From: Lumbricus rubellus
Taxonomy: Eukaryota; Annelida; Clitellata; Crassiclitellata; Lumbricidae
DNA length: 64,000 nucleotides
Direction: 5' to 3'
Assembly: GCA_945859605.1 (NCBI GenBank)
Contig: OX243812.1
Location: 44,922,509 to 44,986,508, forward strand
Shown here: in pieces, positions 31,022 to 59,700 of the stretch
How the letters are laid out: each line of letters starts with the position of its first letter
How positions within the stretch are numbered: the stretch's first letter is position 1
Position numbers and translations under genes: made by a program
Notes under the pieces: model-generated
Seen by the model: the letters and a program-made list of their open reading frames with translations, nothing else
Told to the model about the DNA's origin: nothing
Database searches by the model: none

Positions 31022-34000
31022 ATGCCAGTTCTGTCTTGCATCTGTCTGGCTGTTGCGATCATTCTGGCCGTGTCTTCTTCCGGTGGACAACGATGCTGCA
31101 GAAGAAGGTAATACATTAGCATTTATAAATAACGCATTCTAAAGCCATAATCATAGAAAAGTGAATCTGAGGTTAAGTGAGGTCTTAAGTGTCTTTCCAT
31201 CCTTCTTTGGTCAATAAATGAGTCCATGGAGACCAGGGCCTATTTTAAAGAATTTTTCACCAAGCACGTCCCCCCCCCCCTAAGAAAAAATTGTGAAATT
31301 GCAAATGCCTGTTTATTAATAACTAAGTGCTTTAGCCCATCTATCACACTTGTAAGGTCTTTCTCCAGTATGAGTTTGCTTATGCGTTTCTAGCTTATAT
31401 TAATAAGTAAATGGTTTAGCACATCTATCACACTTGTAAGGTCTCTCCAGTATGAGTTAGATTATGAAAATTTTCAAATTAGCTGAGAACTTGAAATGAG
31501 TCAAACGACATGATAATTTGATATTGAATTTGATAACATTCCAATTTTTGCATGAACCAAATAGTTTCTTATACTATTCTAACACTGTCATTATAATTAT
31601 TAGTTACGAAATGGACGACACATGTCTTAACGGTATCATTGATCATGGGTCAAGTCTTCAAGACAAAGGCAAAGTTTATAGCTAAGCTAACAGACTAACA
31701 GTTACTGGCGCCGTCTTGCGGCTGGTCAGTTTGAGTCGCAGTCAGATAATTAAAACACGTCCTTGAACCATTCCTGGGATTTGGCCTTCACAGTTGGTCG
31801 CGAACGTCGGTTACAAGCTTGAAACCATGCTCGCAGTGCTGGGCGTACATCAAATTTTGATGTAACCGGCATATTCATTCGGACATGTAAATGTGCATCA
31901 ACTGTCTCTGCATTGAGGCTGCTTCTATCATCATCCTTCATGAGATTGTATGCACTAACAAGTCTCTCCACGTCACATGAATGAGGCTTTGCTGCGAGTA
32001 GTCTGGCGACAGCTACAGAAACAGAACGCCAGTCTGCATTAGTCAGACTGATCTTAAGGAAATCCTGCAATGTGCTTGTGTTGGACATCTGCGCTTTCTT
32101 TGCAGCGTTCACCAGCTCTCCGTAGCTACTGTAGAAGTCACGCTTCGCAAAGTCTGATGCGAGGCCAGTGTACACCCGTTCAATGTCTTCATCAGATGCA
32201 TTGCCGTTCAGAAGCATTGGTGGAGAAAGCGCCTGAAACTCCAGTGCATAGCGAAGATCACTGGCACCTTTGTCAGTTCCGAGTCGACTGGTCAGAAAGT
32301 TGCACAGCGAACAAATAATCTCAGTCTTGATGGCATACACATCGCGACCGCAACTGCTAACGAGAGAGTGCTCTCTCTTACAGTGCCTTAATTGGACGAC
32401 TGTGAGCTTAACAGTGTCGTAACTCTTGATAACTTCATCGGCTTGTTCCTCATTCCCTGTAATTGTTACTTTCTCCTCATATCCACCTGGGTGCGGACGC
32501 TGTAATAATTTCCTTAGGTCCTCCACACATTTATCACGATCACTTTCGACGTCAAACAGAGTCACTTGGTTGCCCTGCAACTTCTTCTGAAATCTAGAGT
32601 AGATGTACAGCGCGTCACACAAGATCGCTGCAATGTGAACAGTGTCAGCATTAATCCACTTCTTCAGCATGCCATATTCTTCAGCGTCTTTCAGGGAGAA
32701 AGTCTGCAGATGTCGCATCATCGGTCTGTAGTTGTCCAGAATGGATGACAGAAGACTGTTAGAATATTGTGTGAATCTTATGTCGATTACTGATGGATAC
32801 TGTCTGACTGTGACGCCAAGTTCTTCCGCATGCTTCTTGAATTCCTTTGTTCTACATGCTGAACTGTTATAGAAACGCGTAACTGCTTTACAGTCATCTA
32901 TAACACGCCGTGCTTCAGGAACACCTGTAGTCATGTCTTTGAACACTAACTGAGAACGGTGAACACTGCACCATATTTTGAGGAGAGGGCTAGGGCCCTT
33001 ACATGGACTTGACGTGTCCTTAGTGGTGTTGTCTTTGCGTTCTTGCTCGAGCAGTGTCCATAGCGAATGATGTCTTCCAGTATTTTCTGACGCGCCGTCT
33101 GTGACAATAGAGGTTGTTTGCTTAAATATCTCTGGCCATGTTGCTCCACACTTTGCAGACGCCTTCCTGAGTGCCTCCAATAACCCCTCGCTACCTCGCT
33201 TCTCGCTTTCAGCCAAGCCCATGTACCAAGTCTCCATGTCTCCAACCGCCGTTACAACCTGCGCCATAACATGCTTGTTGTCTATTCGCTGCTTGTCAAC
33301 AGCACCATCAACTCTGAGAGAAAGCGCAAGGATATCTTTAAATCGGAGTGCAAATGCCTTACGGTCCGTTTCTGCGATTGTCAGTAGCATGTCGCGATGG
33401 CTTGCAGGAGTGACATACTGTAGATCTGTGTTAGTAGGAGAAAACGGAATTTCAGGGTTGTTCAAGTCTATTCTTTCAGCCATCAATGACGCCACGTATC
33501 TAGCTGGAAATGACCACGCAGATAGTGTCCCGCGTTTGGCATCCATGTATACCTTAATCATGTTTCTTGCTATCTTTTGTTCCAATGCAGTGTTAGCAAA
33601 TCGCAGTTGTTTCTCCAACACAGTTTCTCCCTCATGTATCCGACCCTCGGCAAGAGCCTTCTGTTGTCGACTACGTGTCAAACAAGCATTGTGTACTGTC
33701 GATCCACAGTGTTCATCATACATCTGCTGCCTGAACACTGCACCATTTGCAGTGCATATGGCTGGGATCCTTTGACAGTGGATCTTCACCAGATCAGGAT
33801 GTGCACAACAGATTTTGCAATGCACAATCCTCCTTCTACCAGACCCACCACGAGCTTCACTTCTGTACTCTGCCCAATGCTCAGCCTCAACCTTCTGTTT
33901 GCGTCCTGACTGATTTTTGCTTGACTGTACAACCCCTTGAAATTAAATTGCCTCGTGAACCTTTTCCTCAAACTCATCGACTTTCACATCCACCGGTTTA

Positions 34001-37000
34001 CTTCCAGCTGGAGATAGCGAAGCTGTCACACTTATGGTTGACGCTGAACATGTTAACTGTGCGGATGTCCTTGACTGCTCTTCGGTTGTGGTACTATTAC
34101 TAGCTGCAGTACTTGTTGAAATTGAATGACCAGTGCCACATTCGTCATCAGAAATGTTTGTGTCTGATTCCGCTGTGTGTTGACTATTCTGTTTTTCAAT
34201 ACTTACATAGTGATTTGTGCCAACCAACCCCAGATATATAGCGTAAGACTCAGTCTCACATGACGATGCTTGAGATGAGGTAGGTAATGTTGCCATATCA
34301 ATACGCTGTTCCCCCTCCACAGTTAAAATGATGATAGGTCGTCGATACAGATTGACTGCTACAGAAAGAATTACACCATCACCCCATGTGCCACATTTCT
34401 TCATGTTGTCGATATATACTTGCAATTCCTGCTCTGTCATAGCTCCACTGTCCAAGATCATCTGCGACTGTGAGTGCGACTGCAGACATTCAACCAGTTC
34501 CATGCGTACATCATGAGCAGTTGTCGCTGTCGCTGAGCTTCCGCGTCCAAGCTGAGTCAACTGTCTGGCGAGTGAACTAAATAAACAGTTTCCATCTGCA
34601 GCCACATTGACAACCATCATATTCCTCTGTGCAGCTAATGATTTCAACTTATCCATTTCCGTCAACTGTCTCGGCTCAAACGAATCTGAAATTGCAAAGT
34701 ACACAAGTATGCCAAAGAATGTTAGATGGTCGAAAAAATGACACCCACTTTAAAGAACTTGCTTATGCTATAACTCTTACTAAACTACTATTATTGTAGG
34801 CTATATATCAGATGCTAGTAGCTTATATCTATTCATAATTACATATCTTCAATGATGACACAGAGTCACGGAAGTGCTGAGGGAGACCTTTACCTTTAAT
34901 ATAATACTATATGACAATAATGATATAGACTGTTTGACAGGTCACTTGGTACAGTTCATCATTTACTTAGCTACATTTATCAATGTAATCGTTTCTTAAC
35001 TTTTTAAGTTAACATACTGCAACAATTTATAATTTTACAGCTGTGTTGAGGACCAAAGCAACTAACCTGCGTGCGCGTTCCTCTTCGTCATTCGTTTAAA
35101 CATGGCCTGTGTGTCGTTTCCAGGTGACGACGCAACCCGTTTTTTACTCATCGTGAAATTCGCAAATGAATGAAGTAATGAACTAAAACAACTGAACTGA
35201 CCGAAAGGCCTAATAGTCCTAATATCGTAATAATAAATGTCAATAAACAATTATGAATTATAACGAAAACTCAACTGTAGCCTAAATATTATTATTTTTA
35301 CATCAGTCACAGTTTGTAAACAAGTTTAACGCGCTGCATGACGTCATGACGCAGCCCAAATAGATGTATGGAACGCCGTTCGAACTTTCCTAAAGAAATT
35401 AAATATATTGGCGGTGTTTTTTAAAACAACTTTAAACAAGTTCAGTAAGTGCCGTGCCAGGCGTGCCTGAGCGATCAAGCACGGACCGTCAATTCCTCAG
35501 GCACGTTTTTGTAATCTCAAAGCACGGACGTGCCTGTCGGCACGTTAAAATAGGCCCTGATGGAGACCCTATCGCCGAGTCAACACCGTCCTAGTCTAAT
35601 CATTACTGCCGTGGCTGTAGCCTACTGAGAGCGCCTTTGAGTTGATTTCTTTATCAAATTCCTGAGATGAATGTTCCAATTCGTTTTTGGTCTCTCTCGT
35701 TTCCATTGGTCACTATAGTGACTTTATAGGCCTATCTGATACGACGATTCTGATCTGCTGGCAATGGACCTTGTCTACAGATTTACAGATTTTGTCTACA
35801 GATTTAGATATCACTGGGGCTACACAGCAATCTTTTCCTGCCTCTACTATCCAAAACTCTATGGTATTGTATTGTATATTGTGTTGTATTGCATCTATAG
35901 GCTACATTTATATAGCGCCTCTCGCAGAATGACCATTCAGAGGCGCTCCAGTAAAGCATAGACTAGACGTTTGCCTGCATCCATGGGTAAATAAATATAG
36001 GCTATATGCACATAAATTGTAAAGCATTTATGATGCTTGCTACAGACCTGCAAAGTATAGGGCCTGCATGCATGCATCATACTTTCTTCTATACGGTATA
36101 CAATAAGTCCAATAATATGTGACTTAAGATACTTTTAAACTGTTTGAACATGCAGACAATACGAAGACGATGTGCGTTGGGTGGCAGACGGTCAGAAGTG
36201 CGGCAACGACGATGATGATCCGACCAATGCAGCTGCAGTTGAAGGGGACAACATCGTCGATGATGATGATGATGATGACTTTCTGGCTGACATAGTGACA
36301 AAAATGCGACCGTTCTCTGAATGCCACTTACGTCCATACTTGTACGAACCGAGTCATGGCGAGAAATCAAAGAACGCTGTCATTGCTGTGCAAAGCTTCG
36401 AAAGAGACCGGAATGTCGTCAACGCTCTGACTGAACAAATACAACATTCGAAGTTTGCAGTCGTCTCATCTACCGGTGAACTGCTTCCAAAGTCTGTCGA
36501 ACTAAAAGGATCGGCCACTACGCATGGTATGCATAGTGATCAGTCACCCGTCCCTGCAGAAAACCAAATTCAGCAGCAAGATCCCGGCACATCACCACGA
36601 GGTACTTACGAAAACTGTTCAGGTAGAGCAATGAGCGGCATCTACGATGATGCTGTTGGGTGTTGCATGCATGCATCCGATGCATGCAGCGTGAGGACGT
36701 ACGCAGAGTTGAACACGTCGTCTTCAACAGACTTTTCGTCTGGAACAGCCACCGTCGCTAGCTACGAGTGTCTTATCAACCAAAAGACAGACTCCTCATA
36801 TCTGAATGTATGCACTTCTGATTTACTGTTGGCTAATGGTGACCAAAATGTGTACAATTTTTCATTGTCGGACTCGTACAACTATACACTACCGGGGAGT
36901 TCTACTGTGAAGAGTGATACCCCGCAACCACCTGCAGCCGATGACTCCATTGCAACAAGGCATGATGCAGCGAATGCCATCTGGCGTTCTTGCGAGAGTC

Positions 37001-37266
37001 GTCGATCTGACGTGGAGTCCGGTCATTACAGCACGTTGGATAAATACGACTGCAATGGAGCAATGATGAGCGGAGTCTACGACAGCATTGAAGACCCGAA
37101 GTACCTGACTGTCTGCACCACAAGTCCCGCTGCCACGAAGCAAGAGCATGAGCTGAAGGCAAAGGAGAAGGCAGAAATGGAGGCAACCAAGAGAAAGACA
37201 ATGATGCATGCTGCTCCAATCGGAGAAACTCAACTCATGAAAACCACAACGAACGAAGTATATTAG
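31022..37266 (+). CDS. Putative transmembrane adaptor with multiple tyrosine motifs (two exons)
   Basis: Exon A (30993-31107) has acceptor CTTTTTCAG and donor AGAAG then GTAATA. Exon B (36156-37266) has acceptor ACATGCAG and ends at a stop. The phase-2 junction restores an Arg codon. From the ATG at 31022 the protein is 398 residues. It has a hydrophobic segment (MPVLSCICLAVAIILAV), a Cys-Cys pair followed by Arg residues, then a hydrophilic tail. Tail motifs include YENC, YDDA, YAEL, YECL, YLNV, YSTL, YDSI and YLTV; YENC and YLNV fit the YxN pattern favoured by Grb2 SH2 domains. This layout matches LAT/PAG-type adaptors, in which the membrane-proximal cysteines are palmitoylated. Alternatively exon A is the transmembrane exon of a larger receptor whose ectodomain exons lie upstream (the frame is open to the acceptor), or the segment is a signal peptide. 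Confidence 0.6.
31226..31233. repeat. Left target-site duplication of the hAT-OTU element
   Basis: ATGGAGAC lies immediately outside the left inverted repeat. It is identical to 35560-35567. Confidence 0.95.
31322..31458 (-). pseudogene. Decayed C2H2 zinc-finger fragment inside the hAT element
   Basis: On the minus strand two tandem copies read THTGERPYKCDR, the classic C2H2 linker plus first Cys. The first finger has CDRC, Phe, Leu and the HKQTH histidine pair at canonical spacing, but a TAA replaces one residue. Its upstream linker has lost 2 bp. In the second copy the second Cys is Trp (CDRW), and stops follow. It lies between the left inverted repeat and the transposase stop. It is most simply a captured or ancestral zinc-finger scrap that is no longer coding. 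Confidence 0.8.
31750..33942 (-). CDS. hAT-superfamily transposase ORF
   Basis: hAT enzymes excise and insert DNA through a DDE-type RNase H fold interrupted by a helical insertion. Counting from the GTG at 33825 (691 codons), the first Asp is in LRVDGAVDKQ (residue 173), the second in SIVTDGASENTG (243), a CxxH motif in IWCSVHR (about 286-289), and the Glu in SCDVERLVSAYNLM (620), followed by the C-terminal dimerisation region. A CKIC...H..C...H pattern at the N-terminus resembles a BED-type finger. The frame is open upstream of the GTG, through EHWAEYRSEARGG, back to the TAA ending the OTU part, so the GTG is not a real start. The likely product is an OTU-transposase fusion. Confidence 0.93.
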   Translation of the reverse strand, partial: FQGVVQSSKNQSGRKQKVEAEHWAEYRSEARGGSGRRRIVHCKICCAHPDLVKIHCQRIPAICTANGAVFRQQMYDEHCGSTVHNACLTRSRQQKALAEGRIHEGETVLEKQLRFANTALEQKIARNMIKVYMDAKRGTLSAWSFPARYVASLMAERIDLNNPEIPFSPTNTDLQYVTPASHRDMLLTIAETDRKAFALRFKDILALSLRVDGAVDKQRIDNKHVMAQVVTAVGDMETWYMGLAESEKRGSEGLLEALRKASAKCGATWPEIFKQTTSIVTDGASENTGRHHSLWTLLEQERKDNTTKDTSSPCKGPSPLLKIWCSVHRSQLVFKDMTTGVPEARRVIDDCKAVTRFYNSSACRTKEFKKHAEELGVTVRQYPSVIDIRFTQYSNSLLSSILDNYRPMMRHLQTFSLKDAEEYGMLKKWINADTVHIAAILCDALYIYSRFQKKLQGNQVTLFDVESDRDKCVEDLRKLLQRPHPGGYEEKVTITGNEEQADEVIKSYDTVKLTVVQLRHCKREHSLVSSCGRDVYAIKTEIICSLCNFLTSRLGTDKGASDLRYALEFQALSPPMLLNGNASDEDIERVYTGLASDFAKRDFYSSYGELVNAAKKAQMSNTSTLQDFLKISLTNADWRSVSVAVARLLAAKPHSCDVERLVSAYNLMKDDDRSSLNAETVDAHLHVRMNMPVTSKFDVRPALRAWFQACNRRSRPTVKAKSQEWFKDVF
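33943..34685 (-). CDS. OTU cysteine-protease domain exon of the hAT element
   Basis: OTU proteases usually remove ubiquitin. On the minus strand the exon follows acceptor GCAATTTCAG and encodes about 247 residues. The catalytic core is visible: VAADGNCLFSSLARQL holds the Asp and nucleophile Cys, and NHYVSIE holds the His, about 125 residues later as expected for OTU. A Ser/Thr-rich linker then leads to a TAA at 33945-33943. Downstream codons stay in the same frame into the transposase for 39 codons before its first listed start. So one nonsense codon, a read-through or a small undetected intron separates the two parts. Confidence 0.9.
35067..35151 (-). CDS. First coding exon of the hAT-OTU gene
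   Basis: The ATG at 35151 starts MSKKRVASSPGNDTQAMFKR, basic and possibly nuclear-targeting. The exon ends GCAG with donor GTTAGT, phase 1, and joins the acceptor at 34686 to make an Asp codon (NAHA-D-SFEPRQ). The 381-bp intron has a good donor and acceptor. Confidence 0.8.
35560..35567. repeat. Right target-site duplication of the hAT-OTU element
   Basis: ATGGAGAC follows the right inverted repeat and is identical to 31226-31233. Confidence 0.95.
36156..37266 (+). CDS. Adaptor gene, terminal exon (tyrosine-rich tail)
   Basis: The exon opens QYEDDVRWVADGQKC, passes two acidic runs (NDDDD, DDDDDDD), and carries internally similar blocks GRAMSGIYDDA and GAMMSGVYDSI that suggest an internal duplication. 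It ends in a Lys/Glu-rich segment and EVY. Low-complexity frames on the opposite strand are shadows. Apart from the short tyrosine motifs no domain was recognised. Confidence 0.75.
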
Positions 37267-56774: not shown

Positions 56775-59700
56775 TCATTCATTCATTCATTCATTCATTC
56801 ATTCATTCATTCATTTATTGACTCTCAATGTCACATCAATATTCACATAACAGAAACAGACATTAACAACAACAAAACTTCAACAAGGAATTAATTGTTA
56901 TAAACTTAATATTAGTGCAGGTCAATGAGTCAGCCGACAAAGGTCTAAAAGACCCGCTTAAACTCGGCTGGCTCATTTACAAACTTAATTCTTGCATAAG
57001 TAAATGTGGAGAATCAAAATTCCATCAAGATAAGGAGACACCAATAACACATTAAAAATAAGGTTAAGTTGAATATGAGGCGGTACACAAAAAATAGCAG
57101 AATAACATAGGGCCACACACTATTAATTAATGTAAATGCAAAGCCTGAGAACATCATAAGCTTAAGCATATATCTCACTCAGACGGGGAGGAGGCATTCC
57201 CATAAACTTCTTTTTAAAATCCCCATTATAACCTACACATATATAAAAAGTATTTTAGTTTATTTTTAAAATGTTTGATGGATACAGCAGTTCTTATATC
57301 CACAGGAAGAGAATTCCATACCGGTGGGCCACTGCATTTAATACAGAATTGCTTAAGTTTGAGTCTTACGCTGGCACATCGATAACTCTTAGATAACCTA
57401 GTGGCATGGTCATGGATATCAGAGCCGAGAGAAAAGAATCCATCAAAGTTGGGAGGCAACATACGATGATGATACCTGAACATAAACAGTCCTATTTGCA
57501 ATTTAGTAATATCACATAGCTGTAGAATTTTGTGCTTAAGAAATGTAGGTTTTGTGCTTGAACTCCAGAGCAGACCAAATATCACACGGATAGCACGTTT
57601 CTGAAGGATGTCCAATGCATTCAAGCGACAGTGATAGTTAGAGCCCCACGAAATAATGCAATATGATAAATATGGGGAAATTATTACACAGTACAGACCA
57701 ATTAAAGAAGTTCTGGGTAAGCAATGTCTTACACGAGACAATATACTAATGTTTTTAGCAATTTTTCATCATCATCATCATCATCATCATAACAAACAGA
57801 CGAACCATGCACTTCTTATGAGTTCTTGAGAGTGTTGTAGCAACTCGGTCAAAGAGTCATCTTGCATTTACTGGCAAGTGGATTGGTTGTTGTGTAACAT
57901 GTGCAATGTGAATATATAGGCTATATCTATATAAATAAAAACGAGGGAGGGGAGGGAAGGTGGAGGGGAGAGGAGGGGGGACGGTCTTTTCTGCCACAGC
58001 AACGCGTGGTCGGGTACAGCTAGTAATATACATGTATAAACATTATATATCATGATACATGAATGTAGGCCTATGTGTGTGTGCAGATTAGGAATAGTTG
58101 ATCAAATTAGTAGGAGGCTAAGTGTGTGATTTATCCGAATAATTGAATAATTTGTCTTACTGGCAGGTAGTTTGGGTTTCCTTGAGATTGGTAAAGACGC
58201 AGATCTCATGACGCGCCTCATCACACTTGGGAACGCAACCGGTTGAGACTCCGGATCCAATGCATCGGTAGCAGTCGTGACAAATTCCTTTCATTTTTCC
58301 ACAGACGAAGGGAAATTCCATCGCTGAAGAAAAAGGTAATATAATGTTCATCAATTCAGAGTAGAAACAACTTCTAAAACACCAGAGCTTAAGAAATATA
58401 TGTCTGAATTTAAAACTCCTGAAGTTCTGCATCGAAGCAAAATAAATCGAGTTTTAAATCTCTCTCTCGTGACGACTCTCTAAAGTCCTGTAATTAGTTG
58501 TCAATTTCATTCTATTCTGTCGGTTTTTAAATGTCTGCTTCAAATTGTTTGTTCACTAAGGCCTAACTTGTGGTTTTCTGGCCAACCAGAATTCTCAAAA
58601 TAGGCCTAATGCACTGCACAAAAAACCAGTTTGCTTTCTGAACACTTTTGGGATCATCGTATGGATAGGCCTACTCCCGAATTGCTGATAGTGAAAAGCA
58701 GCTTCGAATTAATATTCTTGACACGTACCGTTTATTATAATTGCCTATTTTTGACTTCTTATCACATACTTATTATTGGTCCAGTGATGCTTCCCACGAA
58801 GTAAACTGATTTGTTTAGTTTAGACAAGCTGGGTCAATGGTCATAGGCCTACACCTAGTCCAGGTTTCACAACGTGCAATGGAATTACTCGCCGGGCATG
58901 TTTTGTAAGCATCGATGCTGGTATCACGAAATAGAGTATCCTCCCTATTAGTAGGCCTAATCGTATCCCTTTTGCAGGTTTATGCCTCCCTTTCAATATT
59001 ATCAGTCCACACTTTTCAAATTTTCTTCATAGCTCAAATCCCTGTAGGCCTATATTCTCAATTCATTTTCATTGCTCTTCGTTTACATTAGCAAGTCTTC
59101 ATTGTAGTCATAAATAACGCCAAAAAGCATTAGCTTTATATCGGAATAGCTCAATGACACTAGCAAGGTTTAAGGCCTCACCTGAGTGACAGTGGCAGGT
59201 CTAAAGGTGATAAGCAGCTTATATGTCCAGTTTTCGTTACTGTATTGTCTATAGTTAGTGCCATACGTGTAAAAATTGTTTTGGCAAATAAATGCGGTAG
59301 ACCACTAAAGAACTTGTGAACAGGCGATGAAGACATAGGACTAAGCGTGGAATCGCCTAAAAGTCATGTACTGTACATGTAGCCTATATAGCTCACGGAA
59401 GAACGGCACTATCCTGGCGGTGCTGTTTAGATGACTTGATTCAAGCGATGCTTACACTGGCTGAGTAGGTCGTGCCTTGCATTCATTTCAACATATTCAG
59501 GATATATTGTGGCTCCGCTGACATTCAACTTCATCAGTCGATCGATGACAAAGCGATCAATGTAATCCCTAGTCTTATAGGTCTCCAGCACAGCTTCCTT
59601 GGCACGGAGCACGACCGTGTAGTTAACGATAAGGTCTTGTCTATAGTTGGTCCCACTGTGCGCACTAGGTTCCACGTCTGAACCGCTGCTTCTCTGCCGT

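Follow-up and report, generated by a model that had tools for sequence, protein, structure and literature searches.

A hAT transposon of Lumbricus rubellus whose near-identical sister joins an OTU protease domain and a transposase in one open frame

A complete hAT transposon in the annelid Lumbricus rubellus carries, in one frame and in this order, an OTU protease domain, a zinc finger and a transposase of the Hermes fold, with a single TAA between the protease and the zinc finger; in a near-identical sister sequence, the whole arrangement reads as one open frame. We think it somewhat more probable than the contrary that the OTU domain acts at the transposon ends, de-ubiquitinating the transposase together with its partners, and so prolongs the life of the complex. 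The window is the 64-kb stretch of DNA analysed here, and features of the element are all given on its reverse strand (-).

The element spans 4326 bp (31234..35559), with terminal inverted repeats and a target duplication at both ends. The 5' repeat, CAGGGCCTATTTTAA (35545..35559), and the 3' repeat (31234..31248) are complementary at 15/15 bases and start with CAGGGCC, hAT terminal inverted repeats being short and beginning with CA. An 8-bp duplication, GTCTCCAT, lies perfect on both flanks, at 35560..35567 on the 5' side and in identical form at 31226..31233 on the 3' side. Perfect 15-bp inverted repeats and an 8-bp duplication are hallmarks of the hAT superfamily, and the intactness of the ends suggests that the insertion is recent. 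The duplication (31226-31233) also matches the Ac-type preference, nTnnnnAn, for which a single site is little proof. When the 64-kb window was compared with itself, the element turned up only once. Downstream of the transposase stop, ahead of the 3' end, lies a pair of broken C2H2 zinc-finger fragments (31314..31466), two copies of about 70 bases (31314-31384 and 31398-31466) that are 89% alike and contain PYKCDRCAK. They look like a piece of a host gene that was captured and then duplicated. Adjoining the element, a 372-codon open frame on the forward strand (36148-37266, (+)) is acidic, with repeated tyrosine-containing stretches; it had no Pfam match at E 0.1 and may belong, as one exon, to a host gene for a signalling protein. 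Elsewhere in the window, a 179-codon frame (57226-57765, (-)) resembles by eye the last part of a reverse transcriptase protein of the non-LTR type; the Pfam scan gave it only a weak, unrelated match, below the cut-off.

The catalytic part of the transposase (31750..33690) has the Hermes-like RNase H fold and the D, D, E active site of a hAT enzyme, with the residues at D 33309-33307, D 33099-33097 and E 31968-31966. A protein search recovered 24 relatives among the 7998 candidates scored (those sharing most words). In their alignment, the first D is found in 22 of the 23 rows with a letter at that column (P0011 has N), the second in 24/24 and the E in 20 of 22, the exceptions, P0003 and P0007, being frames that end before it. 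The transposase of the element is 15% identical in alignment to that of Hermes, a solved hAT transposase which is not known to have a protease domain. The C-terminal hAT dimerisation domain (PF05699) was not listed for the window reading frame and appeared weakly, below the cut-off, in the relative P0019. Upstream of the catalytic part sits a BED-like zinc finger, C-x2-C ... H-x5-H (33691..33819), whose four ligands are present in all 17 of the 24 aligned relatives that reach both of its halves.

The OTU domain (34195..34599) matches PF02338 at E 3.4e-11, scoring 44.2 bits vs a curated cut-off of 23.3, with the Pfam match ending at about 34228. Both DGNC and NHY are present, and with them the catalytic cysteine and histidine of an OTU protease (Asp 34596-34594, Cys 34587-34585, His 34212-34210); the assignment of the third triad residue is putative. 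The protease motifs and the three transposase residues that the earlier note had picked out are all in place. Structural models of the OTU domain are of low confidence, with blocks mostly at pLDDT 50-60 in the full model and a mean of 47 when it is modelled alone, and the linker region (P0001 residues 170-278) lies below 50. With the window OTU domain alone as query, the PDB sequences gave no match at E 0.01. An OTU-only protein search (P0001 residues 1-185, against 489 candidates of 541-1722 residues) returned P0001 alone; since P0003 and P0013 were missed, this search is insensitive and says nothing on the source of the domain. The OTU domain of the element would presumably cleave ubiquitin.

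What, then, is the status of the TAA (33943..33945)? The earlier note had placed both domains in one frame inside one transposon and had asked whether the TAA is a sense codon in other copies. A predicted protein from a public JGI source, P0001 (984 residues), is the sole near-identical sequence among the matches listed, and it is open through both domains; together with the element ends, it bears out the first point and, for this one sequence, answers the second. P0001 is identical to the read-through of the window copy at 978/984 residues, and the TAA position, where it has a sense codon, is among the 6 of 984 that differ. In this sister sequence, OTU domain and transposase read as one open frame, and because of the sense codon in P0001 the TAA reads as a lesion or variant of the window copy. 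Since the TAA would stop translation after the OTU domain, the window copy is likely non-autonomous, its product likely being the OTU domain alone, with no transposase bearing a complete zinc finger. Conceivably the copy is intact and the TAA arose as an error of assembly or of base calling, for only a single codon is affected, both frames are otherwise open and P0001 differs at so few residues; yet ordinary decay or an allele explains the TAA equally well, and we regard such an error, which is compatible with our preferred explanation, as distinctly improbable.

Alternatively, two products might be made: the OTU domain alone, through the stop or through splicing at a donor-like TAT/GTAAGT (34207) just past NHY, and the transposase separately. 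The TAA of the window copy would suit such a scheme, as would the donor-like sequence, which has 7/9 consensus bases in phase 0, and an acceptor-like sequence, TTGTACAG, just downstream of the TAA. However, P0001 has no stop, P0003 is open through its own linker, and TTGTACAG fell short of the pyrimidine threshold. Moreover, the transposase frame of the window sequence has no ATG upstream of the first zinc ligand, so a transposase started at an internal ATG would miss part of the zinc finger. Taken together, these points make separate products improbable. Removal of the TAA by splicing via 34207 was set aside, given the lack of a stop in P0001 and the pyrimidine shortfall of the acceptor-like site.

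A single fused product might begin further upstream. A predicted exon 1 (35067..35151), with an ATG at 35151 and a phase-1 donor CAG/GTTAGT, joins the OTU exon in frame; it is covered by no homologue, and its site pair is one of several that pass simple thresholds. The GT-AG intron of 381 bases between the two exons (34686..35066) is a prediction only, and the start of P0001 is uninformative because it falls within it.

A protease domain stands in front of the zinc finger in 5 of the 17 relatives that reach both zinc-finger halves (P0001, P0003, P0013, P0014 and P0016). No such domain was found in the other 12, by Pfam scan in 8 and by database label only in 4 (P0004, P0007, P0023 and P0024), an absence that is weak evidence because introns may cut predicted eukaryotic frames; in a further 7 of the 24 rows, the sequence begins only within the zinc finger or within the transposase, and these are uninformative on the N-terminus. 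A profile search (A1), with 7989 candidates scored, yielded 8 proteins at a threshold of E 1e-10. Of these, 6 were already known, and the new ones, P0025 and P0026, were left out of the alignment and the tree. Among viral contigs, 6 stretches match the P0001 pattern, none encoding a relative.

The arrangement described by the earlier note recurs in P0003 and P0013. P0003 is 50% identical to P0001 over 799 aligned columns and has the C-terminal half of an OTU domain, including NHY, fused at the same place via an open linker of its own; because its OTU Pfam score (16.3 bits) lies below the cut-off, the OTU call rests on alignment to P0001. Identity between the two is 26/71 in the OTU domain, 12/76 in the Ser/Thr-rich, poorly conserved linker between OTU domain and zinc finger (33880..34194 in the window), 40/74 in the zinc-finger region and 302/507 in the catalytic part. 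From the first two of these values, the OTU domain appears to be held while the spacer drifts, as expected of a working fusion. P0013 is a frame of 1005 residues with an OTU domain (28.6 bits vs a cut-off of 23.3, E 2.3e-6) plus a transposase, for neither of which a PDB search with P0013 gave a match at E 1. The stretches QTSILNLF, GIMNFFKSK and ISFFSG in the N-terminal regions of P0012, P0013 and P0007 resemble PCNA-binding motifs; that of P0013 sits after the OTU domain, as if an earlier transposase start had later gained this domain in front of it.

In the remaining two relatives, the protease domain is of another type. The N-terminal domain of P0014 matches the solved chain 8add (E 9.2e-5, phmmer) over a span that includes QC, at its start, and FDSH. 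Although 8add is deposited as an ATP-dependent DNA helicase, we infer from its title that it is the zebrafish tegument-like (VTD) domain of PMC9741609; P0014 resembles this solved VTD including the Q-C and Asp-x-His motifs, and its FDSH agrees with the Asp-x-His arrangement reported for VTD. Database labels list PF04843 for both P0014 and P0016; in our own Pfam scan, the two scored 12.7 and 15.5 bits, below the cut-off of 25. P0016 begins past the QC motif and, searched by itself, matched nothing in the PDB at E 1, and its tegument-like assignment therefore rests on its likeness to P0014, to which it is 56% identical over the whole alignment, including the rest of the domain.

These relatives also bear on the idea that the OTU domain is a functionless fragment captured from the host, one passenger among many. 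The broken C2H2 fragment in the same element speaks for such an origin, foreign DNA having seemingly been taken up. Against it, P0001 keeps both an open frame and the catalytic motifs, NHY is kept in the 50%-identical P0003, and protease domains occupy the same place in P0013, P0014 and P0016. We hold a passenger to be the most improbable of the possibilities considered here.

How often might hAT transposases have acquired such domains? In a transposase tree of 24 rows and 665 columns, P0001 pairs with P0003 (support 100/97) and P0014 with P0016 (100/99), and P0013 falls in another clade. Placing P0001, P0003 and P0013 in one clade was rejected (p-AU 7e-68), as was a single clade of all five protease-bearing rows (p-AU 3e-120). 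The minimum number of label changes on the tree is three, which may equal one gain and two losses. Between the OTU domains of P0001 and P0013, the match is no better than E 0.020, and separate origins of the two are for that reason likely. With two kinds of OTU domain and a tegument-like domain lying apart on the transposase tree, domains of deubiquitinase type have probably been recruited by hAT transposases more than once.

Comparable combinations are known from other mobile elements. Ginger1 transposases carry an OTU or a Ulp1 domain, depending on the family, at the C-terminus, according to the available text of PMC2836005, and resemble the element described here in fusing an OTU cysteine protease to the DDE transposase of an animal cut-and-paste element. 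They differ in that their transposase is Gypsy-integrase-like and their protease C-terminal, whereas the window element has a Hermes-fold hAT transposase, an 8-bp duplication and an N-terminal protease. Helentrons and Helitrons have OTU and tegument-like (VTD) domains, together or substituting for one another, in the portions available of PMC9741609, and OTU domains in Helentrons are mentioned also in those of PMC4067079. Such elements are rolling-circle transposons with a Rep/helicase protein; in contrast, the window element is a cut-and-paste hAT, in whose two long frames Pfam found no Rep/helicase domain. The large tegument protein of alloherpesviruses has an OTU domain where that of herpesviruses has a VTD (accessible part of PMC9741609), which is akin to the replacement seen here at one position, but these are viral structural proteins without a transposase. 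Fungal hAT7 elements, as far as the text at hand of PMC12730594 goes, likewise combine a hAT with an extra enzyme, TET/JBP, encoded upstream of the transposase in three named families; there, however, it is a separate gene for a different enzyme, in fungal hosts and with 7-bp duplications. An OTU- or VTD-bearing hAT was absent from the literature matches listed, which comprised titles and the starts of abstracts from open-access PMC; in the text available for one candidate, PMC9017028, the single "OTU" is a sequence-clustering term. The suggestion that a hAT of this form is undescribed stands to that extent, and it needs qualifying in that the element is less isolated than it had seemed, given Ginger1, Helentrons and a second type of protease on its hAT kin. 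What appears to be new is an OTU or tegument-like domain on a hAT; such domains on Ginger1 and Helentrons were already known.

How might the OTU domain serve the transposon? We infer no more than that a fused OTU-transposase protein would be made, whose substrate would be the transposase or something held beside it. We envision that the OTU domain would remove ubiquitin in cis, either from the transposase or from its neighbours within the end-bound complex, and that the transposase complex, shielded from destruction, would live longer. This is the simplest and the most likely role, because an N-terminal domain is kept, differing protease families occupy that place, and these families are known elsewhere as deubiquitinases. 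Alternatively, the domain may work in trans at the cut site, on host proteins such as histone, PCNA or repair factors, to aid repair of the break, the fusion serving as a means of delivery. Delivery to DNA fits a fusion with a DNA-binding transposase, and the available text of the Ginger paper proposes that, while transposition proceeds or once it is over, DNA repair factors may be activated by OTU or Ulp1 (PMC2836005). No host substrate is indicated by the present data, however, and the VTD paper, in the portion accessible, suggests that the Helitron domains protect transposition proteins from proteasomal degradation (PMC9741609). Action in trans thus seems to us unlikely, though a real possibility.

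If the OTU domain does protect its own transposase, the finding would suggest that ubiquitin-dependent turnover of transposases by the host is a sufficiently strong pressure to select for the capture of deubiquitinases in another transposon superfamily. Because both parts lie on a single polypeptide, the idea of protection in cis is directly testable. Relatives of the tegument deubiquitinase of herpesviruses also sit on cut-and-paste transposases, which bears on the spread of that enzyme. We lean, with slightly better than even confidence, towards a general view in which hAT transposases have independently gained ubiquitin-removing domains at least twice, and probably on three occasions (two types of OTU domain and one herpesvirus-tegument-like), always N-terminally, ahead of the zinc finger. 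The hAT elements would then be the third class of eukaryotic transposons, after Ginger1 and Helentrons, with interchangeable, unrelated deubiquitinases, and escape from turnover may be a general need of animal transposases.
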